Shown here: in pieces, positions 19,281-33,146 of the stretch | How positions within the stretch are numbered: the stretch's first letter is position 1 | Layout of the letters: every line of letters begins with the position of its first letter | Source: a virus | DNA: 41,836 nucleotides | IMG/VR virus record: IMGVR_UViG_3300024290_000001 | Span: 1 to 41,836 of that record | Direction: 5' to 3' (one strand) | Translations under genes and position numbers: made by a program | The notes under the pieces: generated by a model | The model's input: the letters and a program-made list of their open reading frames with translations, nothing else | Told to the model about the DNA's origin: nothing | Database searches by the model: none

Positions 19281-19832
19281 TCATCGCATAGCCAGCCCGT
19301 AAATCACCGCCATGGTGTCGAGCGCGCCGCGAAACCGCTTACCGAAATAATCCTCCCAGCTTCGGCCGGTCAGCCCGCGGGAGCCCGCAATGGCCCGCAT
19401 GGTCCAGCCAAACACGAGAACCTGATGCACGACTGCGGAGCCCTCGATCCCAAGCGCGGCTTCAATCTTGTTCAACCGGGCTACAATCCTCATGCGAGCC
19501 TCGGTGATGAGTTCAGGTAGCGCCCCGCCGTCAACGTACTCCTTGCCCGGATCAATCGCTCTAGGACCGTTCTCTGCCAATTCAAAGTCCTGTTGAAACA
19601 TCCTGCCAGCCTGGTACTGCGCTTCAGAGATGGTTTTGCGCGCGTGCTGATCGCCGAGCGGGTCGTCACGGGTCGACCGCATGACGACGAGCCTGGCGCC
19701 GCGTTCCAGCGGATCGTCAACCTCGATTGGGGCAACATGGCCGCCGATACCGCGGTTGAACTCAGTCGCGCGGCGGTCGTGGATTTTGGCCGCGGCTGGG
19801 TCGTAGGGCTTCTGGCGCTTAGGGCGGCTCAT
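19281..19832 (-). CDS. DUF6456-like protein, candidate late regulator (183 aa)
   Basis: Last gene of the leftward early operon, just upstream of the putative late promoter. The basic N-terminus (SRPKRQKPYDPAAAKIHDRR) is followed by YQAGRMFQQDFELAENG, a helical ELITEARMRIVARLNKIEAA, LGIEGSAVVHQVLVFGW, and RGALDTMAVIYGLA. The motif order resembles DUF6456 proteins of alphaproteobacterial phages. The position matches late activators or antiterminators of other temperate phages. The regulatory role is inference. The start is taken at the ATG two bases past the upstream TGA. Confidence 0.6.
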   Translation of the reverse strand: MSRPKRQKPYDPAAAKIHDRRATEFNRGIGGHVAPIEVDDPLERGARLVVMRSTRDDPLGDQHARKTISEAQYQAGRMFQQDFELAENGPRAIDPGKEYVDGGALPELITEARMRIVARLNKIEAALGIEGSAVVHQVLVFGWTMRAIAGSRGLTGRSWEDYFGKRFRGALDTMAVIYGLAMR

Positions 19833-20278: not shown

Positions 20279-20752
20279 CTAGACCCTTCGTAGTGTTGCC
20301 AAGGCTTCGGTACTGATCGAATGCTTCGATCGTCCTGTATCCTCAGAGACAGTAGAAGAAGGTTTTATAGGTGATTGTGTCATGCTTGAGCAAAACGGAG
20401 CATTTGCTTTCGCTATGAAGCTGTTCATTTGCGTCCTAGAACCACCCTTTTGCCCAGCAATTGCCCTAGCATTTGCTACCCTTTCCCGCTTCGCAAGCTC
20501 GGCTTCAAGCCGTTTGTGCTGCCAACCCATGTAAAAGAATGCCTGGATCGTTTCTTTGCTGTCCAACCAAATGCGCAGCGGTAGCTTAGCAATTGCTGCT
20601 AGTTGCTTGTCGTCGTTTGGGAGCTCACGCTTACGCCAATAGTGCATCAGCAGGAGCAAGTATGCCCCGTGTTGGGTGGTCGTCAGGTGCCCCGTATCGG
20701 CGAGGTAATCGCCAACATAGAGAGGCATCCAGAGGTCGGTCTTTTTGCTCAC
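20279..20752 (-). CDS. DUF1376 / YdaU-like replication-module protein (157 aa)
   Basis: The N-terminal 90 residues match the DUF1376 pattern: WMPLYVGDYLADTGHLTTTQ, HGAYLLLLMHYWRKRELPND, LAAIAKLPLRIW. This domain is a replication-associated winged helix found in phage and prophage replication modules, usually beside a DnaC/helicase loader or DnaA-like gene. The C-terminus is low-complexity and Ser/Thr-rich. It overlaps the gapR-like gene by four bases. It probably helps assemble host replication proteins on phage DNA. Confidence 0.75.
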   Translation of the reverse strand: MSKKTDLWMPLYVGDYLADTGHLTTTQHGAYLLLLMHYWRKRELPNDDKQLAAIAKLPLRIWLDSKETIQAFFYMGWQHKRLEAELAKRERVANARAIAGQKGGSRTQMNSFIAKANAPFCSSMTQSPIKPSSTVSEDTGRSKHSISTEALATLRRV

Positions 20753-21021
20753 ACTGTCATTCCGAGAGCATGCATATAGACCTCCAAGATCGATTCTTCT
20801 TCTTGCCTGTCGTTTGGATCTTGCCGACGCATACGAACGATGGCCCGGAGCGCCTTGCAGTCGTAGCCGTTCCCTTTGGCTTCGCTGTAGATGTCGGCCC
20901 GGTCGGACTGAAGCTCCTTGATCTCGCCATCGAGGTTTTCGATGCGCTCTATGATTGATCGCAACTGATCCTTGGAGAAGCTATTGTGGCCAGCGGCTGG
21001 CGCCGTTTGAAGTTCGCTCAT
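20749..21021 (-). CDS. gapR: GapR / DUF2312 nucleoid-associated protein (90 aa)
   Basis: Clear DUF2312 (GapR) signature: SIIERIENLDGEIKELQSDR, then DIYSEAKGNGYDCKALRAIV, RMRRQDPNDRQEEESILEVY. In Caulobacter GapR binds overtwisted DNA ahead of replication and transcription and helps topoisomerases. A phage copy lies here beside DUF1376 and a DnaA-like gene, so it probably supports phage replication or host nucleoid takeover. The start MSELQTAPAAGHN fits the family N-terminus better than the ATG nine codons upstream. Confidence 0.9.
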   Translation of the reverse strand: MSELQTAPAAGHNSFSKDQLRSIIERIENLDGEIKELQSDRADIYSEAKGNGYDCKALRAIVRMRRQDPNDRQEEESILEVYMHALGMTV

Positions 21022-21199
21022 GGGGTTCCTCGTTCTGTGAATATTCACGCAAGGCGACTGAAGCGCCGTCGATTAAAACGTTGGCAAGGTGCGCTTTCGA
21101 GATCTCGAAGCGCTGGATTGGCCCGTCTCCGACCTGAATGTTGAGGACGAAGACGCCAGGCGCTGGCGTGGTCAGGTAGGCGAGTTTGGCTTTGGTCAT
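20981..21199 (-). CDS. Small protein of replication operon (72 aa)
   Basis: ATG lies in an ATGA overlap with the methyltransferase stop, and the 3' end overlaps the gapR start by about 40 bases. The sequence MTKAKLAYLTTPAPGVFVLN has an N-terminal beta hairpin with GPIQRFEISKAHLANVLIDG. Unknown function, but conserved-looking spacing in the operon. Confidence 0.55.
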   Translation of the reverse strand: MTKAKLAYLTTPAPGVFVLNIQVGDGPIQRFEISKAHLANVLIDGASVALREYSQNEEPHERTSNGASRWPQ

Positions 21200-21774
21200 G
21201 CCGCATCCCTCTGCAGCCAACGAAGCTCAGCACAACCCTCATGGCCATGCTCCCAGACTAACCAGCAATAATCCATCTTGCCCCCGCCCGGCTTCTTTCC
21301 TGCCGCGATCGTATGACCGGGCGGCATGCTCGGCCGTGGCGTCATTAGCCAGACACGTTTCAGGGGCGTCCCACGCAGCCAGTGAGCGGCGTTGAGGCGC
21401 GCGGTAGGAAAGATCATCGCAACTTTTCCAGGAACCATGAGGGCTCTCTGAGCGAACGCAGGAGCAATATCGAAGGGTGGATTGCAAACGATGTTTGGCG
21501 CAAAGATGTGATCACATTTCATGAAATCTATTGTGCCGCCGAGCCGCCGATATCCTCGATCGACCAGATCGGTCCCAATCCCACCGATACCAGCCATAAT
21601 AGCTCCATCTGGAATCCGTCCAAAACCACAGCACGGATCCCAGATACCGCCGTCGAATCGTTCTTCCTCAAACAATCTGTTCGAGCACCAGTATGGCTCG
21701 ACATAGTGTTCGTGCTCTTCGCGCTCCCAAACATGCGCGTTGACTTCCTTGAAAGCCGCTCCAAGTTCGCTCAA
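21196..21774 (-). CDS. DNA adenine methyltransferase-like protein (192 aa)
   Basis: Small class I SAM-dependent methyltransferase. A motif I-like DPCCGFGRI at about residue 46 is followed by an acidic residue (GTDLVD) that would bind SAM, and a catalytic motif IV variant, CNPPF (about residues 97-101), characteristic of N6-adenine enzymes. No target-recognition domain is obvious beyond the C-terminal HGHEGCAELRWL. It lies in the replication operon, so it may protect phage DNA from restriction or mark it for regulation. Confidence 0.75.
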   Translation of the reverse strand: MSELGAAFKEVNAHVWEREEHEHYVEPYWCSNRLFEEERFDGGIWDPCCGFGRIPDGAIMAGIGGIGTDLVDRGYRRLGGTIDFMKCDHIFAPNIVCNPPFDIAPAFAQRALMVPGKVAMIFPTARLNAAHWLRGTPLKRVWLMTPRPSMPPGHTIAAGKKPGGGKMDYCWLVWEHGHEGCAELRWLQRDAA

Positions 21775-21968
21775 GCCGATCTCCTATGCTTGCGCCGGCC
21801 GACTTCCTTGCGCAGCTCTGCCGTCATTTCGTGTTTCAAAGCAGCCTCCAGCTCAGCTCGGCGAATGGAGCGCCGCGGCGCCAGGGCCGTGAGAGACTGG
21901 AGAAACGCGATCCGGTGAGGTCTTGGAAGGCGCCGCAGGCGGCGCAGCGTTGTGAAGATGTCGTTCAT
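21771..21968 (-). CDS. Small Arg-rich protein overlapping the DnaA-like gene (65 aa)
   Basis: Highly basic (RRLRRLPRPHRIAFLQSLTA; RKEVGRRKHRRSA). It starts inside the 3' end of the DnaA-like gene in another frame and ends with an ATGA overlap to the methyltransferase. The 3' overlap supports translation. Probably DNA- or RNA-binding, or only a coupling frame. Confidence 0.45.
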   Translation of the reverse strand: MNDIFTTLRRLRRLPRPHRIAFLQSLTALAPRRSIRRAELEAALKHEMTAELRKEVGRRKHRRSA

Positions 21969-22500
21969 TGTGCCGCTCCGTGATGGATGCTTTTAGGCGC
22001 TCGATCCGCGCCATGAGTTCGTCGTCTTCTTGACAGAGACGAGCGATCTTGCGGACGCCGTGCATGATGGTGGTGTGATCACGGCCGAACTTCCGGCCGA
22101 TCATGGGGAGGGTAGCTGGCGTCATTTCCTTGGCGAGATACATCGCGACCTGGCGCGGTCGGACGATCGAGGCTTGATGACGGTGGCTCAGCATATACTT
22201 GAGCTGGATCTCGTAATCCTTTGCCACAGCTCGCTGAATTTCTGGAATTGATATGCCGGTGTCGCCGATTTCCTCGATGATGTGAAACCAAGGTTCCTTC
22301 GGTGGCGGTAATGGGATCTCGTTTTGACGCTCGACCCAAGCCGTGATGTCAGGTTCAATTAGTGTGATCAGAGGAACCTTTGCCGAAGCCGATGGACATG
22401 AAATCCCGGTATCCGGCTTTGCTTGGCGCGCGATCTTGGCTCGAAATGCCTTGTGCTTCTCCATGCATTCGATCTGCGTCGGTGTGAGCATGACGTTCAT
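21853..22500 (-). CDS. DnaA domain IV-like replication initiator (215 aa)
   Basis: Residues about 85-165 match the DNA-binding C-terminal domain of DnaA: AVAKDYEIQLKYMLSHRHQA, RQVAMYLAKEMTPATLPMIG, and the signature GRDHTTIMHGVRKI, close to the DnaA motif GRDHSTVLHA. There is no AAA+ ATPase domain, so it probably binds DnaA-box-like sites and recruits or competes with host DnaA. The start is the ATG at 22500 with GGGAG six bases upstream, rather than the ATG nine codons before. The C-terminal 40 residues are Pro/Ser/His-rich. Confidence 0.8.
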   Translation of the reverse strand: MNVMLTPTQIECMEKHKAFRAKIARQAKPDTGISCPSASAKVPLITLIEPDITAWVERQNEIPLPPPKEPWFHIIEEIGDTGISIPEIQRAVAKDYEIQLKYMLSHRHQASIVRPRQVAMYLAKEMTPATLPMIGRKFGRDHTTIMHGVRKIARLCQEDDELMARIERLKASITERHNERHLHNAAPPAAPSKTSPDRVSPVSHGPGAAALHSPS

Positions 22501-22523
22501 GTTTTCTCCCGTTGATGAAACGC

Positions 22524-22904
22524 TCAAGTCTTTGGCGGGCTCGACGAACCCGCCACCATTTCCACAAAGCCCTGATCAACCTCATTCAATTGCCCCCGCA
22601 GAGCCGCCAGCTTGGCCAGCTCGTTCGCATGCTCTTGTTCAACGCGGTTGCACAAATCGCGGTAGGCATCGCGGATCGACAGGAAAAGCGTGATCCGCGG
22701 TTCTTTGACTTCCGAGTGGTTTGATAGAAATTTCTTCAGCCAGGACGACGAAGCCCCGACTTTCTTAGCAACGGCCTCGTAGGCAATTTCCCGCGAGCCG
22801 GTGCGGTGTTGCTCCTTCTGGAGCAGGTGGCCGAGCGCGTGTCTGGTTGCGTCGGTCAAGGCAAGTGCGGACATGGCAGGCGATTCCCTGTCGAAGTTCC
22901 TCAT
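22524..22904 (-). CDS. Helix-turn-helix protein (126 aa)
   Basis: Helical protein with a central HTH-like segment EIAYEAVAKKVGASSSWLKK FLSNH (split here), then a coiled coil (RDLCNRVEQEHANELAKLAA) and a Ser/Pro tail. The start may be the ATG at 22904 (GAGG upstream) or the next ATG at 22874. It is third in the leftward operon after the Cro-like gene, so a CII-like or operon-specific regulator role is possible but unproven. Confidence 0.6.
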   Translation of the reverse strand: MRNFDRESPAMSALALTDATRHALGHLLQKEQHRTGSREIAYEAVAKKVGASSSWLKKFLSNHSEVKEPRITLFLSIRDAYRDLCNRVEQEHANELAKLAALRGQLNEVDQGFVEMVAGSSSPPKT

Positions 22905-23460: not shown

Positions 23461-23559
23461 TTATTTTTCTTGCAACCGGCTGCAATCGATTCCATTGTCA
23501 TGGTTTCGACACATCCCGGAATGGCCGACATGGGCAACGTTGTGCAGTTCGCGCGTCAT
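23461..23559 (-). CDS. Small His/Cys-containing peptide after the Cro-like gene (32 aa)
   Basis: ATG in an ATGA overlap with the Cro-like stop, and the frame runs 32 codons with four His and two Cys (MTRELHNVAHVGHSGMCRNH). Coupling is the only support. It may be a leader peptide or metal-binding microprotein, or may not be expressed. Confidence 0.35.
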   Translation of the reverse strand: MTRELHNVAHVGHSGMCRNHDNGIDCSRLQEK

Positions 23560-23771
23560 GCGCGGGCCTCGTCGGCAGTTAGCGGATACAGGTCAGGGCG
23601 AAGCTCATGGCGAGATACGCCAGAGACGCTTTCGACCTTGAGCACCCGCAAGGGTGGAACCTCGACCCATTGGGAAACTGCTTGCGGTGTGACGCCAATC
23701 GCCCGGGCGAAGGCCGCTTGCCCCCCGGTTCTCTCGACTGCTCGTTTGAGTGCTTCTGTTCTGTCGCTCAT
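23556..23771 (-). CDS. Cro-like / YdaS-type regulator (71 aa)
   Basis: Compact helix-turn-helix: LKRAVERTGGQAAFARAIG-VTPQAVSQW, the YdaS/Cro pattern of short DNA-binding proteins that start early leftward operons. It is divergent from the CI-like gene with operators O1-O3 between them, so it is the probable Cro of this switch. ATG at 23771 is preferred; an ATG six codons upstream (23789) lies inside operator O1. It likely binds the same AAGC-N3-GCTT sites and represses the CI promoter. Confidence 0.8.
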   Translation of the reverse strand: MSDRTEALKRAVERTGGQAAFARAIGVTPQAVSQWVEVPPLRVLKVESVSGVSRHELRPDLYPLTADEARA

Positions 23772-23781
23772 AGTTCGAAAC

Positions 23782-23843
23782 TCAAGCATAGCTTTATATC
23801 AAAGTCAAGCGTTGCTTTGTTGTTTCGATCAAGCAGAGCTTTA
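23782..23843. promoter_or_regulatory. Left operator cluster, three 15-bp sites (O1, O2, O3)
   Basis: Three near-identical sites with core AAGC-N3-GCTT: TCAAGCATAGCTTTA (23782-23796), TCAAGCGTTGCTTTG (23805-23819), TCAAGCAGAGCTTTA (23829-23843). Start-to-start distances are 23 and 24 bp, about the spacing of lambda operators. Site O2 contains a leftward -35-like TTGACT. Site O3 overlaps the TATAAT of the repressor gene promoter. They should bind the CI-like and Cro-like proteins. Confidence 0.85.
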
Positions 23844-23847
23844 TAAT
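23820..23847 (+). promoter_or_regulatory. Repressor promoter giving a probable leaderless mRNA
   Basis: TATAAT at 23842-23847 with a weak TTGTTT -35 (23820-23825, 16-bp spacer). The expected start site is at or within a base or two of the ATG at 23854, and no Shine-Dalgarno lies before that ATG. This resembles lambda cI transcribed from PRM. Operator O3 overlaps the -10, giving a route for autoregulation or Cro control. Confidence 0.6.
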
Positions 23848-23853
23848 ATTGAA

Positions 23854-24174
23854 ATGACTTTAGGAAAACGCATAAAGACCGCTCGGGAACGGCTGAAACC
23901 TCATCTCACTCAGGCCGCCGTCGGAAAGCATTTTGGCGTTTCAGCTCAGGCGGTTTCGGGGTGGGAACGAGACGACACGATTCCCGATCTCAATAAGATA
24001 GCTCCGCTCGCAAGGCTGCTCCGAGTGCCGGCTATTTGGCTGCTGGAGGGCGGAAGTCCGGTTCCTGCCCCGGACTCCATAGAAACAACGATCGAGCAGC
24101 TCACGCCCTCCCAGCGGGCGATGCTGAACGCTGTTGCCAGGTCAATCCTGAAGGAAACCGACGAAGTGGCTTGA
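23854..24174 (+). CDS. CI-like repressor lacking a cleavage domain (106 aa)
   Basis: XRE-family helix-turn-helix in residues 1-60 (LGKRIKTARERLKPHLTQAA; GKHFGVSAQAVSGWERD; IAPLARLLRVPAIWLLEGG) plus a 40-residue helical tail (LTPSQRAMLNAVARSILKE). It lies between the two operator clusters and is the best candidate for the lysogeny repressor. It is much shorter than lambda CI and has no S24 peptidase Ser/Lys pair, so RecA-driven self-cleavage is not expected. Induction would need an antirepressor or another signal. A terminator follows at once. Confidence 0.75.
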   Translation: MTLGKRIKTARERLKPHLTQAAVGKHFGVSAQAVSGWERDDTIPDLNKIAPLARLLRVPAIWLLEGGSPVPAPDSIETTIEQLTPSQRAMLNAVARSILKETDEVA

Positions 24175-24175
24175 A

Positions 24176-24204
24176 GCCCGGTTCGGGCCGGGCAATCTTT
24201 TTTT
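24176..24204 (+). terminator. Terminator after the repressor gene
   Basis: GCCCGG (24176-24181) pairs with CCGGGC (24188-24193), followed within five bases by seven T (24198-24204). It insulates the repressor transcript from the early rightward operon. Confidence 0.75.
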
Positions 24205-24214
24205 GACCAATAGC

Positions 24215-24252
24215 TAAAGCAACGCTTGACAGTCAAGTAAAGCCGTGCTTGA
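24215..24252. promoter_or_regulatory. Right operator cluster (O4, O5) and early rightward promoter
   Basis: Two sites inverted relative to O1-O3: TAAAGCAACGCTTGA (24215-24229) and TAAAGCCGTGCTTGA (24238-24252), 23 bp apart. A perfect -35, TTGACA, lies at 24226-24231, at the end of O4. The -10 would fall at O5 (no strong TATAAT match). The mirror pair O2/O1 has TTGACT in the same place, so both early promoters have the same operator geometry. Repressor binding should block rightward early transcription. Confidence 0.8.
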
Positions 24253-24279
24253 GTGCTTCTACCGCAACGGGAGCACGAC

Positions 24280-24516
24280 ATGGCATCCATTCCGAGAAAA
24301 TGCACAGCAGTCGATATCAAGCTCGGTGAGCGGCTGCGCGTGATGCGCCAGAATCTTGGCCTGAGCCAATCCGATCTCGGCGCCGCGATCGGCGTCAGCT
24401 TCCAGCAAATCCAGAAATACGAAGCCGGCAAGAACCGGGTGGCCGTGAGCACGATGCTTGCGCTCACGGATCACCTCGGGATTTCGGCCGCTCGTTTTTT
24501 GAGGGGGATCGCGTGA
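24280..24516 (+). CDS. XRE-family regulator, first rightward early gene (78 aa)
   Basis: Standard alphaproteobacterial XRE protein: VDIKLGERLRVMRQNLGLSQ, SDLGAAIGVSFQQIQKYEAG, MLALTDHLGISAARFLRG. GGGAG lies before the ATG at 24280, and operators O4/O5 lie directly upstream. It may be a second Cro-type regulator of the early operon or modulate repression. Confidence 0.8.
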   Translation: MASIPRKCTAVDIKLGERLRVMRQNLGLSQSDLGAAIGVSFQQIQKYEAGKNRVAVSTMLALTDHLGISAARFLRGIA

Positions 24517-25170: not shown

Positions 25171-25286
25171 GCGACGACTACGCGATCGATACGAGAACAG
25201 TTCTGATCTGGCTCATTCTGCTGAATATCGCGCGTTGGGCGTTCTATGACGTTGGCGGGATGGTGATAGGGAGGATTTTCGGATGA
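25167..25286 (+). CDS. Small membrane protein (39 aa)
   Basis: MSDDYAIDTRTVLIWLILLN with one hydrophobic segment (VLIWLILLNIARWAF) and a Gly-rich tail. It is flanked by four-base ATGA overlaps on both sides, which supports translation as part of the recombination operon. Unknown. Confidence 0.5.
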   Translation: MSDDYAIDTRTVLIWLILLNIARWAFYDVGGMVIGRIFG

Positions 25287-25984
25287 GCAACAACGCAGTC
25301 GAAAAGATCGAGCAGCAGCAAGCTTTGGCGATCACGCCGATGGATATGCTTAACCGCGCTGTCTCATCAGGCGCCGATCTCGACATGATCGAGAAGTTGA
25401 TGAACCTGCAGGAGCGCTGGGAAGCTGGCAACGCTCGCAAGGCGTTCGAAAAAGCTCTTGCTGCTGCAGGTGGCGAACTCCCGATCGTGATACGAAACGC
25501 AACCGGCCACAATGACAAGAAATATGCGGACTTCTCCGCTATCGCGAAAGCTATAGATCCGGTCTTGTCGCGCCATGGGTTGTATTACCGCTTCAAAACG
25601 CTGCAGACCGAGAAAACGATCACCGTGACCTGCGTGCTGTTCGGCCACGGCCATAGCGAGGAAACTGCACTAACCGCCGGCGCCGATACCTCTGGCAACA
25701 AGAATGCCATTCAGGCGATCGGCTCCACGCTTACCTACCTGCAGCGCTACTCGCTCGTGCAGATGCTTGGGCTCGCTGCTGCGAAGGACGACGACGGGGC
25801 GGCCGCGCCGGGCAATGCAATCAGCCTGGAGCAGGTTGAGGAACTAGTGACCCTCGCCGATGAGGTCGGAGCCGATAAGGAAGCATTCTGCCGATATTTC
25901 AAGGTCGGCGGCTTTGCCGATATCTCGACGAAGGACTTCCCGCGCGCCGTCGCCGCCCTGAACAAGAAAAGGAAGACGGCATGA
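25283..25984 (+). CDS. erf: ERF-family single-strand annealing protein (233 aa)
   Basis: Matches ERF-family recombinases: ALAAAGGELPIVIRNATGHN, KKYADFSAIAKAIDPVLSRH, and a core ...IQAIGSTLTYLQRYSLVQML GLAAAKDDDG... (split here). It would anneal homologous single strands, the partner of the exonuclease in the next gene. Four-base overlaps on both sides place it in a phage recombination module with exonuclease and NinB. Confidence 0.9.
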   Translation: MSNNAVEKIEQQQALAITPMDMLNRAVSSGADLDMIEKLMNLQERWEAGNARKAFEKALAAAGGELPIVIRNATGHNDKKYADFSAIAKAIDPVLSRHGLYYRFKTLQTEKTITVTCVLFGHGHSEETALTAGADTSGNKNAIQAIGSTLTYLQRYSLVQMLGLAAAKDDDGAAAPGNAISLEQVEELVTLADEVGADKEAFCRYFKVGGFADISTKDFPRAVAALNKKRKTA

Positions 25985-26616
25985 CCGCGGAAATCATCCA
26001 AGGTTCCGACGAATGGAAAGCGCTTCGTCTCGGTAAGGTCACGGCCTCGCGTGTCGCTGACGTGGTAGCCAGGACTAAGAGCGGGTACAGCGCTAGCCGA
26101 GCCAACTACGCTGCTCAGCTCATTGCGGAGCGCCTGACTGGCACGCCAGCGGAGTCCTATACCAACGCGGCCATGCAGCACGGCACCGAAACCGAGCCGG
26201 AAGCGCGCGACGCCTATTGCTTCTACCAAGGCGTGACGGTCGAAGAAGTTGCGTTCGTTCCCCATCCCAAGATTGGCCAAGCCGGATGCAGCCCAGATGG
26301 CTTGGTCGGCGAGGACGGCCTAGTCGAGATCAAGTGTCCCCAAACCGCTACCCATCTGGAAACACTGCTCGGCCAGGCCGTCCCCGCAAGGTACGAAACC
26401 CAGATCCAATTCCAGATGGCCTGTACGGGACGGAAGTGGTGTGATTTCGTCTCCTATGATCCCCGCATGCCCGAGCAGATGCGATTGTTTATCCGGCGCG
26501 TGCCCCGTGACGACAAGCGGATTTCAGAACTCGAAAACGAAATCGCAGGCTTCCTGCTGGAACTAGCCGTCAAGCTTTCGCAGCTCAATAGCCTGTACGG
26601 ACAGGAAGCAGCATGA
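25981..26616 (+). CDS. YqaJ / lambda-type exonuclease (211 aa)
   Basis: 5'-3' exonuclease of the PD-(D/E)XK fold. Key pieces are GSDEWKALRLGKVTASRVAD near the start, AMQHGTETEPEARDAY, then GCSPDGLVGEDGLVEIKCP with the catalytic D...E-x-K, and a C-terminal QFQMACTGRKWCDFVSYDP. It degrades one strand from ends and feeds the ERF annealing protein. The length is close to lambda Exo (226 aa). Confidence 0.9.
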   Translation: MTAEIIQGSDEWKALRLGKVTASRVADVVARTKSGYSASRANYAAQLIAERLTGTPAESYTNAAMQHGTETEPEARDAYCFYQGVTVEEVAFVPHPKIGQAGCSPDGLVGEDGLVEIKCPQTATHLETLLGQAVPARYETQIQFQMACTGRKWCDFVSYDPRMPEQMRLFIRRVPRDDKRISELENEIAGFLLELAVKLSQLNSLYGQEAA

Positions 26617-27005
26617 GCCGGGCCGCTATCATTCTCAACAGCCGAGCCGAGCGCGAGCGCGCTGCCAATTGGGCTGCGAAGCTTCCGAGCGGCACGCGCG
26701 TTGAGTTCAAGGCAGCGCGGCGAACTTTGGATCAGAACTCCAAGCTATGGGCGATGCTCACGGAAGTAGCCATGCAAGTTCATTGGCACGGCGCCAAGCT
26801 GACGCCGAATGACTGGAAACTGGTCTTCCTTGATGCGTTGAAGCGCGAGACGCGGGCTGTCCCGAATATAGACGGAACCGGTTTCGTGGAGCTCGGCCGA
26901 TCATCGTCTGACCTTTCCAAGTCGGAGATGGGAGATCTCATAGAACTAATCTATGCCTTCGGCGCTACGCATGGCGTGAAGTTTCGGGAGCTTGAGTTAG
27001 CATGA
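26613..27005 (+). CDS. ninB: NinB recombination protein (130 aa)
   Basis: Matches NinB (Orf of lambda): LPSGTRVEFKAARRTLDQNS KLWAMLTEVA (split), NDWKLVFLDALKRE, and the C-terminal EMGDLIELIYAFGATHGVKF. NinB binds SSB-coated single strands and helps annealing proteins replace RecFOR. It is directly downstream of erf and exonuclease. Confidence 0.9.
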   Translation: MSRAAIILNSRAERERAANWAAKLPSGTRVEFKAARRTLDQNSKLWAMLTEVAMQVHWHGAKLTPNDWKLVFLDALKRETRAVPNIDGTGFVELGRSSSDLSKSEMGDLIELIYAFGATHGVKFRELELA

Positions 27006-27388
27006 ACATGCGAGGCGAGAAGCGCACCGAGTTTCCGCAGGCAATCAAGAAGGCTGCGTTTGCCCGTTCCTGCAAGCCTGACGGGATTCCGAAGTGCGAG
27101 GCGCCAGGCTGCGGCAAGGTGATCCGCGCCGGCCATCTGATATTCGAGCATGTGCAGCCGGACGGGCTCGGCGGTGAACCAACAATGGAGAATATCGCCG
27201 TCTATTGCGACGTCTGCGCGACGAAGAAGACATTCGAGGAAGACAACCCGCGCATGGCAAAGGCCGATCGCGTGCTCAAGGCAACGTTCGGCATGAAGCG
27301 CAAGGGTCGGCCGATGCCAGGATCAAAGGCAAGTGGATTCAAGAAGAAGATGTCTGGCGTTGTCGTCAGACGTGGCTTCTCTCGGTAA
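27002..27388 (+). CDS. HNH endonuclease-like protein (128 aa)
   Basis: Contains a zinc-bound HNH arrangement: KCEAPGCGKVIRAGHLIFEH VQPDGLGGEP (split), MENIAVYCDVCATKK, with C-x4-C and C-x2-C zinc pairs, the HNH His in FEH, and Asn in MENI. The basic C-terminus (MKRKGRPMPGSKASGFKKKM) likely binds DNA. It could resolve recombination intermediates or cut host DNA. HNH proteins are frequent beside phage recombination genes. Confidence 0.75.
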   Translation: MNMRGEKRTEFPQAIKKAAFARSCKPDGIPKCEAPGCGKVIRAGHLIFEHVQPDGLGGEPTMENIAVYCDVCATKKTFEEDNPRMAKADRVLKATFGMKRKGRPMPGSKASGFKKKMSGVVVRRGFSR

Positions 27389-27404
27389 TGGGAAACAAAG
27401 GCAA

Positions 27405-27923
27405 ATGTCACAACGAGATTCCGGATACGAGCGCAAAGAGCGGGATCTATACGAGACGCCGGCGTGGGTGACGGAAACGCTATTGCCTCACATCCAGTCA
27501 CGTCGATTGAAGATCTGGGAGCCCGCCGCCGGAACAGGAAAAATGTCCGCTGTCTTGGCGCGATCACACGATGTCTTTTCCTCTGACATCGAGAACGGCG
27601 ACGACTTCCTGAAATGCACCACGACCGCATGCGACGCGATCGTGACCAATCCGCCGTATGAGCTTGCGACTGAGTTTATTCAGCACGCCCTTGTACTAAC
27701 ACAAGGCTGGGGACTGATTGCCATGCTCTTGCGGACAGATTTCGACCACGCCAAGACACGCGCGCACCTTTTCGCAGACTGTCCGATCTTCGCAAGAAAG
27801 ATCGTCCTGACCAAACGTATCCGGTGGTTCGAAGACAGCACCGGATCGCCTTCGTTCAACCATGCGTGGTTCATCTGGAATTACTATCATGCCGGCCCGC
27901 CCACGCTGGCCTACGCACCATAA
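27405..27923 (+). CDS. Adenine-specific DNA methyltransferase-like protein (172 aa)
   Basis: SAM-binding motif EPAAGTGKMS (about residues 43-52), an acidic DIENGDD after beta-2, and the catalytic NPPY (about residues 83-86). The N-terminus (YETPAWVTETLLPHI) is typical of small phage adenine methyltransferases of the Dam/MT-A type. It has the second NPP motif in this genome (the other is at 21196-21774). It may protect phage DNA. The start ATG 27405 follows AAAGG. Confidence 0.8.
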   Translation: MSQRDSGYERKERDLYETPAWVTETLLPHIQSRRLKIWEPAAGTGKMSAVLARSHDVFSSDIENGDDFLKCTTTACDAIVTNPPYELATEFIQHALVLTQGWGLIAMLLRTDFDHAKTRAHLFADCPIFARKIVLTKRIRWFEDSTGSPSFNHAWFIWNYYHAGPPTLAYAP

Positions 27924-31678: not shown

Positions 31679-31863
31679 TGACCCCCACCCAATACAAAGC
31701 CGCCATCAAATCCCTCGGCCTCAACCAAGAAGAGGCCGGGGAATGGCTTGGCGTCTCGGCCAGGACCGGACAGAATTACGCCGCCAAGGGACCGCCAGAA
31801 CCCGTCGCAAAACTCCTGCGTCTCTGCATCAAGCTGAAGCTGAAGCCCGAGGACGTGAAATGA
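31678..31863 (+). CDS. Small HTH regulator next to integrase (61 aa)
   Basis: A compact HTH, MTPTQYKAAIKSLGLNQEEA, GEWLGVSARTGQNYAAKGPP, with a LLRLCIKLKLKPEDVK tail. It overlaps the integrase by four bases (ATGA). It probably regulates integrase or excision through the TACGAA palindromes. Confidence 0.7.
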   Translation: MTPTQYKAAIKSLGLNQEEAGEWLGVSARTGQNYAAKGPPEPVAKLLRLCIKLKLKPEDVK

Positions 31864-33146
31864 CTAAGCCCGTGAAGGTCCGGAATGCGCCAGGTCTCAT
31901 CTGGCGGCAGCGCGGGACGAAATGGGAAGCCCGCTGGCAGGCGCGCACGGATCTGGTCAAGCGCGGGTTCGGCACTAAGTCTGTCAAGCTCTGGACCGGA
32001 CTTGAGGAGCCGAGCAAGGAAGAATGGGACGTGATCGCCGACCGCTGCAACGAGCTGCAGCAGGAGATGCTCGTCTGGTCCCGCGGCGGCCTGCCCGAGG
32101 TTGGCCCGTTCGATGGCACGCTCAGATCGCTCATGCGCGCCTACAAGACCGACCCGGATTCGCAGTACCGCAAGATCCGCTACAACAGTCGCGTCCACTA
32201 CGACGCCCTTATGTCGCTGATCGAGACCGAGCACGGCGACAAACTCTTGGCCGACCTGAAGGGTCGGACCTTCAGCCGCCTGCACGAGGACTGGACCGCC
32301 GGCGGAAAGATCGCTATCGCGCATGCGAAGATGGGCATGTTGCGGACGCTGTTCAGCTTCGGCGCGACCCTCCTGGAGGACGATGATTGTGGGCGCCTGT
32401 CTGGCATCCTGAGTAAGATGCGCTTCGCGATGCCCAAGCCACGCACCGAGCGCCTGACGGCCGCCCAAGCGATTGCCATCCGCGCCAAGGCGCACGAGCT
32501 CAGCCGCCCCTCGATCGCGCTTGCCCAGGCAATCCAGTTCGAATGCATGCTCCGGCAGAAGGACGTCATCGGGGAATGGGTACCGATCCGGGAGCCGGGA
32601 ATCTCCGACGTGCAAGCGGAGGGTCTGAAGTGGTTGCGCGGGATTCGCTGGGAAGAGATCGACCAGAACATGACGCTGCGGCACCTCACCAGCAAGCGGC
32701 AGAAGATGATAGAGATCAACCTGCGCAATGCCCCGATGGTCCGCGATGAACTCAATGTCATCGCGCCGGAATGCATTTACGATGTGGAGATCGAGCGCGG
32801 CGGGAAGAAGGTCGTAGAAACAAGGTGGGACCGTAGTTTGCTACCGGTCTCAGGACCGATCATTGTTTCAGAATGGGACCGCTTGCCATGGACCGGGCCC
32901 GAGTTTCGACGCTGGTGGAGGATCATTGCGGAGGCCGCTGGCGTGCCAAAGGAAGTCCGCAACATGGACAGCCGGGCTGGCGCGATCAGCGAAGCCACGG
33001 ACGCCGGGGCTGATCTGGAGCACGTTCGGCACGCTGCGACCCACTCCAACATTGCGATGACGCAGCGCTATAGCCGCGGCGCCGAGGACAAAATAGAAGT
33101 CGTGCAACTGGCCAGGCTGAAGCATCGGAACAAGCCGGAAACCTGA
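31860..33146 (+). CDS. int: Tyrosine integrase (428 aa)
   Basis: Tyrosine recombinase for integration and excision. The catalytic domain shows Arg232 (MLRQKDVIGEW), Lys279 (TSKRQ), Arg372 in NMDSRAG, His395 in HAATHSNIAM and Tyr404 (TQRYSRG). The usual box II His (H-x-x-R) is Met369 here. The N-terminal half is a core-binding/SAM-like domain. It is translationally coupled to the small HTH. The tandem repeats at 33146-33165 follow. Confidence 0.9.
   Translation: MTKPVKVRNAPGLIWRQRGTKWEARWQARTDLVKRGFGTKSVKLWTGLEEPSKEEWDVIADRCNELQQEMLVWSRGGLPEVGPFDGTLRSLMRAYKTDPDSQYRKIRYNSRVHYDALMSLIETEHGDKLLADLKGRTFSRLHEDWTAGGKIAIAHAKMGMLRTLFSFGATLLEDDDCGRLSGILSKMRFAMPKPRTERLTAAQAIAIRAKAHELSRPSIALAQAIQFECMLRQKDVIGEWVPIREPGISDVQAEGLKWLRGIRWEEIDQNMTLRHLTSKRQKMIEINLRNAPMVRDELNVIAPECIYDVEIERGGKKVVETRWDRSLLPVSGPIIVSEWDRLPWTGPEFRRWWRIIAEAAGVPKEVRNMDSRAGAISEATDAGADLEHVRHAATHSNIAMTQRYSRGAEDKIEVVQLARLKHRNKPET

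Follow-up and report, generated by a model that had tools for sequence, protein, structure and literature searches.

Genes and sites at the locus

The window, i.e. the whole 41,836-nucleotide stretch of viral DNA analysed here, contains an integrase gene at 31743-33146 and, elsewhere, genes for terminase, portal, major head protein and endolysin, which identify the record as a temperate tailed phage. The two early arms and the region between them were found to hold the following genes, sites and predicted signals.

20279-22527, minus strand: leftward genes (replication arm) for a DnaA C-terminal-domain protein, a DNA methyltransferase and a DUF1376 primosomal-type protein
23556-23771, minus strand: gene for a 71-aa Cro-type repressor of the YdaS/P22_Cro family, adjoining O1 and first among the leftward early genes
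23780-23808, minus strand: predicted leftward early promoter (PR equivalent), TTGACT (23808-23803), 17 bp, TTGAGT (23785-23780), from sequence
23782-23796: O1, TCAAGCATAGCTTTA, overlapping the -10 region predicted for the leftward promoter, at -72 from the repressor ATG, likewise in relatives
23805-23819: O2, TCAAGCGTTGCTTTG, overlapping the leftward -35 and adjoining the TTGTTT -35 of the repressor promoter
23820-23847, plus strand: predicted repressor promoter (PRM equivalent), TTGTTT, 16 bp, TATAAT, from sequence
23829-23843: O3, TCAAGCAGAGCTTTA, overlapping the repressor -10
23854-24174, plus strand: repressor gene, 106 aa, HTH_3/XRE, P22 C2/DicA type (Pfam HTH_3, 2.4e-9)
24176-24202, plus strand: intrinsic terminator, GCCCGG-TTCGGG-CCGGGC (24176-24193) followed by the T run AATCTTTTTT, between the repressor gene and the right operators
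24215-24229: O4, TAAAGCAACGCTTGA, overlapping the -35 of the rightward promoter
24226-24254, plus strand: predicted rightward early promoter (PL equivalent), TTGACA, 17 bp, TTGAGT, from sequence and kept in relatives
24238-24252: O5, TAAAGCCGTGCTTGA, overlapping the -10 predicted for the rightward promoter
24280-24513, plus strand: gene for a 78-aa HTH protein, first under the rightward promoter
25283-27005, plus strand: rightward early genes (recombination arm) for an Erf annealing protein, a YqaJ/RecE-like exonuclease and NinB

The Cro-type and repressor genes are divergent, with start codons 82 bp apart, and the gene order is the mirror image of that in lambda. The equivalent of OR, with three sites, lies between repressor and cro, and the OL counterpart, with two sites instead of three, lies past the repressor, where the recombination arm has its promoter. 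Neither of the two leftward genes that follow cro gave a CII-like match. On the replication arm, the product of 21853-22527 (minus strand) carries a DnaA C-terminal DNA-binding domain (E 5e-25) and is likely a replication initiator or DnaA-box binder. Each early arm also encodes a DNA methyltransferase of PHROG 799 (21196-21774, minus strand, and 27333-27923, plus strand).

The operator array

A first-pass annotation, made from the letters alone, had described a five-site operator array around the repressor gene, three sites to its left and two to its right. This was borne out by an exact search of the window. Matches to AAGCNNNGCTT start at 23784, 23807, 23831, 24217 and 24240, which puts the starts of the 15-bp sites at 23782, 23805, 23829, 24215 and 24238 with spacings of 23 and 24 bp on the left and 23 bp on the right, all as annotated. 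The five sites thus stand where they had been placed, but the search pattern given with them misses O2 by one base. The right-hand sites had further been called inverted. This is true of the asymmetric flanks (TCAAGC..GCTTTA in the left cluster, TAAAGC..GCTTGA in the right) but not of the AAGC-N3-GCTT cores, as these are palindromic and orientation is meaningful only for the flanks.

The core is rare outside the array, as the annotation required. Seven copies are present in the 41.8 kb compared to 0.95 expected in shuffled sequence, five of them within a span of 471 bp. The remaining two, at 19452 and 20495, are isolated and lack the flanking consensus bases. At the rate of the whole window roughly 0.01 sites would be expected in 471 bp, and the Poisson probability of at least five cores is about 1e-12.

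Predicted promoters

Both early -35 elements were found as annotated, TTGACT on the minus strand and TTGACA at 24226-24231 on the plus strand. The two outward promoters are built alike (TTGACW-N17-TTGAGT), and in each the -35 and -10 elements are overlapped by separate operators. In both, TTGAGT is preceded by TGC, resembling an extended -10, and is itself weak; because it makes a poor -10, a strict consensus scan called no promoter. The annotated overlap of O3 with the repressor -10 was also recovered, in that TATAAT (23842-23847) shares the end of O3. From this position O3 is predicted to serve in autorepression or in repression by Cro. The TATAAT element stops 6 nt short of the repressor ATG, and the repressor mRNA is therefore predicted to be leaderless, with +1 expected at the ATG itself. 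A leaderless repressor transcript has been described for lambda cI and paaR2 (PMC8630535).

The encoded regulators

Among solved structures the nearest relative of the 106-aa repressor by sequence is the N-terminal domain of P22 C2 (PDB, E 4e-8). The structural model of the repressor (pLDDT 90) has 2r1j as its top fold match (E 1.2e-3, probability 1.00). In a tree of DNA-binding domains the repressor groups with P22 C2 and DicA with support of 96/94. Short repressors of the 106-aa type cluster together in the same tree, which comprises 77 columns and has weakly supported inner forks. The 71-aa protein matches Pfam YdaS_toxin (2.4e-16) and P22_Cro (2.6e-10) as well as the transcriptional repressors of PHROG 35 (8e-19).

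These homologies bear on the proposal in the first-pass annotation that the region is an independent case of the lambda layout. Convergence could be argued from the operator sequence, which is unlike that of lambda, from the absence of an S24 domain, and from the phage being uncultured and having no close counterpart among named phages in a comparison of its left 24.5 kb at near identity. Against it stand the homology of the two regulators to P22-type proteins, the tree, which places the repressor beside C2 and DicA, and the half-sites TNAAG..CTTNA, which resemble those of P22. We therefore regard convergence as highly unlikely and rejected it on account of the homologous regulators. The switch is not independent, as both regulators are P22/DicA-type homologues and the plan is already known from DicA/DicC, RacR/YdaS and PaaR2/YdaS.

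The Pfam name of the leftward protein, YdaS_toxin, together with the lethality of RacR deletion in E. coli, which acts via YdaS (PMC5700373), would fit an autoregulated toxin-antitoxin-like module with YdaS as the toxin, in place of a lysis-lysogeny switch. The surroundings speak against such a module, namely replication and recombination arms on either side, a further group of operators at the recombination promoter and an integrase. In addition, YdaS and YdaT have been argued to be analogues of Cro and CII and not a toxin-antitoxin pair (PMC8630535). The toxin-antitoxin reading is given very little probability.

The 78-aa HTH protein had been named as a third candidate reader of the sites, and its position as first gene under the rightward promoter may be cited in favour of that role. 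Among 21 related loci, however, it occurs only in L010/L082 (one contig) and in L070. Class A relatives (defined below) beyond these have the same sites and lack the protein, and its helix is a different one (VSFQQIQKYE). Being confined to near relatives, it is not a conserved partner of the sites. As an operator reader it was rejected, with hardly any probability left to that role, and by its distribution it is probably interchangeable cargo.

The S24 peptidase domain with a Ser/Lys dyad that marks an SOS-cleavable CI is absent from the 106-aa repressor, in which the HTH domain is followed only by two more helices and the C-terminus (Pfam and model). Induction must consequently be other than RecA-driven self-cleavage, and the trigger is most likely an antirepressor. 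No antirepressor gene was identified in the window. A search of the window for LexA boxes that could place such a gene under SOS control returned a single GTTC-N7-GTTC match, in the structural genes and at about chance level, and zero matches to two further box types.

Recognition helices and operator classes

Nearly all Cro-type proteins and repressors associated with AAGC operators have recognition helices of the form x[QK]A[VIL], and those of the window are alike (PQAVSQW in the Cro-type protein and AQAVSGW in the repressor). In Rac-like phages with TTAGGC-N3-GCCTAA sites the helices are SPPSV in Cro and mostly xPPSI in the repressor, so that the AGGC class corresponds to PPS[VI]. In an AACC class, comprising the Pseudomonas phages Tr60_Ab31 and PS-1, both regulators have Q[AS]VQ helices. 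CAACC-N3-GGTTG palindromes occur at cI-cro of both phages (L091, Tr60_Ab31, position 1385; L093, PS-1, position 1344) and are a possible third operator class.

This covariation of repressor and Cro helices with the operator bases AAGC, AGGC and AACC suggests, at the level of sequence, that both proteins read the sites. It is based on few independent events, as the AGGC (Rac) set is close to a single lineage (one Cro cluster, two repressor clusters). QAVS-type helices are frequent among XRE proteins, and among AAGC loci at least L084 has a deviating helix. At another locus (L062:5373-7199) the operator is the variant GTAAGC..GCTTAC and the repressor helix is different (IDRGSVSQW).

Common sites for repressor and Cro are not to be assumed, since in CP-933P the footprints of PaaR2 and YdaS lie on two different repeat types (PMC8630535). 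By analogy the AAGC sites could serve the 106-aa repressor alone, with the YdaS-type Cro on other, overlapping repeats. The similarity of the two helices and their joint change with the operator in the AGGC and AACC phages argue otherwise, and a second conserved repeat is not apparent in the aligned operator region. Separate sites for Cro are on balance improbable, and shared reading by repressor and Cro is preferred.

Conservation of the operator module

The lambda-like geometry noted at first pass, with the repressor gene between its operator clusters, is kept in relatives. The five-site pattern recurs in the same register in relatives whose repressors are 99, 58, 51 and 50% identical; L013 deviates by a single base at one site per cluster. 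The leftward -35 element is invariant in the sequence comparison of relatives. A scan of 2.9 million viral contigs for the module AAGCN3GCTTGAC-N9-AAGCN3GCTT returned 74 stretches, compared to one for a reversed-pattern control, while none was found in 698 bacterial genomes (398 of one order and 300 of another). Upon searching eight records whole, six phages each had at most one module copy per orientation and nothing more. All 26 stretches with two copies have these facing outwards, and the CI-type gene, where it could be placed, sits between the two. A YdaS-type gene is nearby in about 64 of the 74 stretches.

Two registers were observed. In class A, which includes the window, the sites lie at -72, -49 and -25 from the repressor ATG and the repressors are P22 C2/DicA-like. 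The -10-like element fused to O3 and its distance to the ATG are kept across class A loci. Half-sites are nearly invariant and the three central bases variable at 16 class A loci, as predicted for a palindrome bound by a dimer. In class B the sites lie at about -74, -51 and -7, and the repressors begin with MLDN or MLEN and mostly have the S24 motif. Here O3 holds the repressor start codon, AAGCAATGCTTGAC reading ATG CTT GAC (e.g. L037, L067 and L052), and the N-terminus is thus partly fixed by the operator sequence. A repressor bound at class B O3 would cover its own start site.

At L070 (positions 459-461, IMGVR_UViG_3300031730_000077) the interval from O3 to the end of the repressor gene is shorter by roughly 301 bp. 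The missing stretch takes in the repressor promoter, half of O3 and almost the whole repressor; O1, O2, O4, O5 and the Cro gene are kept. L070 either lacks the repressor naturally or was misassembled.

Comparison of the whole region with named phages by blastn gave chance matches only, and no description of the operator motif was found in the open-licence literature, an incomplete collection. A wider set of phages with common operators, two registers and exchangeable repressor C-termini appears to be undescribed in the literature searched.

Proposed switch

The region has the parts of a lambdoid immunity region, namely a CI/C2-type HTH repressor, a divergent Cro-type gene, three operators between them that lie on both predicted promoters, and a second cluster at the promoter of the recombination arm. 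The sites, their register, the gene order, the homology and the conservation are features of the sequence itself. Taken together they make the region, very probably, the immunity region of a temperate phage on the lambda/P22/DicA plan, acting as a lysis-lysogeny switch.

How the sites would be bound and the promoters used, including cooperativity and the partners of activation, we infer as follows. In the lysogen the 106-aa repressor would occupy O1 and O2 together with O4 and O5, shutting off the leftward (cro and replication) and rightward (recombination) promoters. O2, located beside the -35 of the leaderless repressor promoter, may activate that promoter, and O3, over its -10, would hold down production of the repressor. 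Expression from the leftward promoter would supply the YdaS-type Cro, which would bind the same sites and turn the repressor off, resulting in a two-state switch.

A broader reading is more tentative, and we give it somewhat less than an even chance. AAGC-N3-GCTT may be one operator alphabet of a large, undescribed phage group with two fixed registers (class A and class B) that bears both S24-type repressors, predicted to be SOS-cleavable, and short non-cleavable ones. Phages with different triggers could then share or cross immunity, and the three-class code of helix and operator would predict which phage represses which.

A known switch type is hereby extended to many uncultured phages, with operators recognisable from sequence alone. 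Testable predictions concern which repressors cross-repress and which prophages would not answer DNA damage through self-cleavage. The way in which the helices of repressor and Cro vary in parallel with operator bases provides a natural data set on recognition specificity.

Relation to known switches

The RacR/YdaS pair of the E. coli K-12 Rac prophage likewise combines a short non-S24 repressor with a divergent YdaS. Its intergenic 15-bp sites have the same build as those of the window (TTAGGC-N3-GCCTAA, one being CTAAGCATTGCTTAA), and three complexes of RacR with the intergenic DNA have been reported (PMC5700373). Two more sites lie past racR on the opposite side, comparable to the second cluster here. 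These RacR-type sites, ATAGGTAATGCCTAA and ATAGGCTATGCCTAA at L090:2130 and 2155, are 25 bp apart and probably form the Rac left-operator cluster. Rac differs in its half-site (AGGC instead of AAGC), in a spacing of about 25-26 bp and in having four intergenic sites, and RacR, at 158 aa, is only a distant relative of the 106-aa repressor in the tree.

DicA of the Qin prophage (135 aa) has no protease domain and falls in the P22 C2 branch together with the 106-aa repressor. Its operators lie in the dicA-dicC and dicA-dicB intervals and form a bistable switch (PMC10448788). In contrast to the window, the DicA/DicC half-site is of the GTTAG type and three sites are reported per side.

In CP-933P, PaaR2, YdaS and YdaT comprise a leaderless repressor gene, YdaS as Cro and second operators at a PL-like promoter (PMC8630535). 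The window shares this layout, with a predicted leaderless repressor, a YdaS-type Cro and a second cluster at a PL-like promoter. CP-933P has another operator sequence, four palindromes and toxin-antitoxin genes after the repressor, and YdaT, its CII analogue, was not found in the window.

P22 resembles the window in C2, the top PDB match by sequence and by fold, and in the P22_Cro family match of Cro. Its half-sites are TTAAG..CTTAA, and OR and OL flank c2 as the two clusters flank the 106-aa repressor. It differs in the gap between AAG and CTT (4 bp, compared to 5 in the window), in having three sites per side and in the S24-type C-terminal domain of its repressor.

Gifsy-type repressors are, like the 106-aa repressor, short and without a cleavage motif. 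These non-cleavable repressors of about 136 aa are removed by LexA-controlled antirepressors (PMC3121763), whereas in the window an antirepressor was not identified and no LexA box stands out. The region of the window itself belongs with the lambdoid immunity regions of the DicA, RacR and PaaR2 sort.
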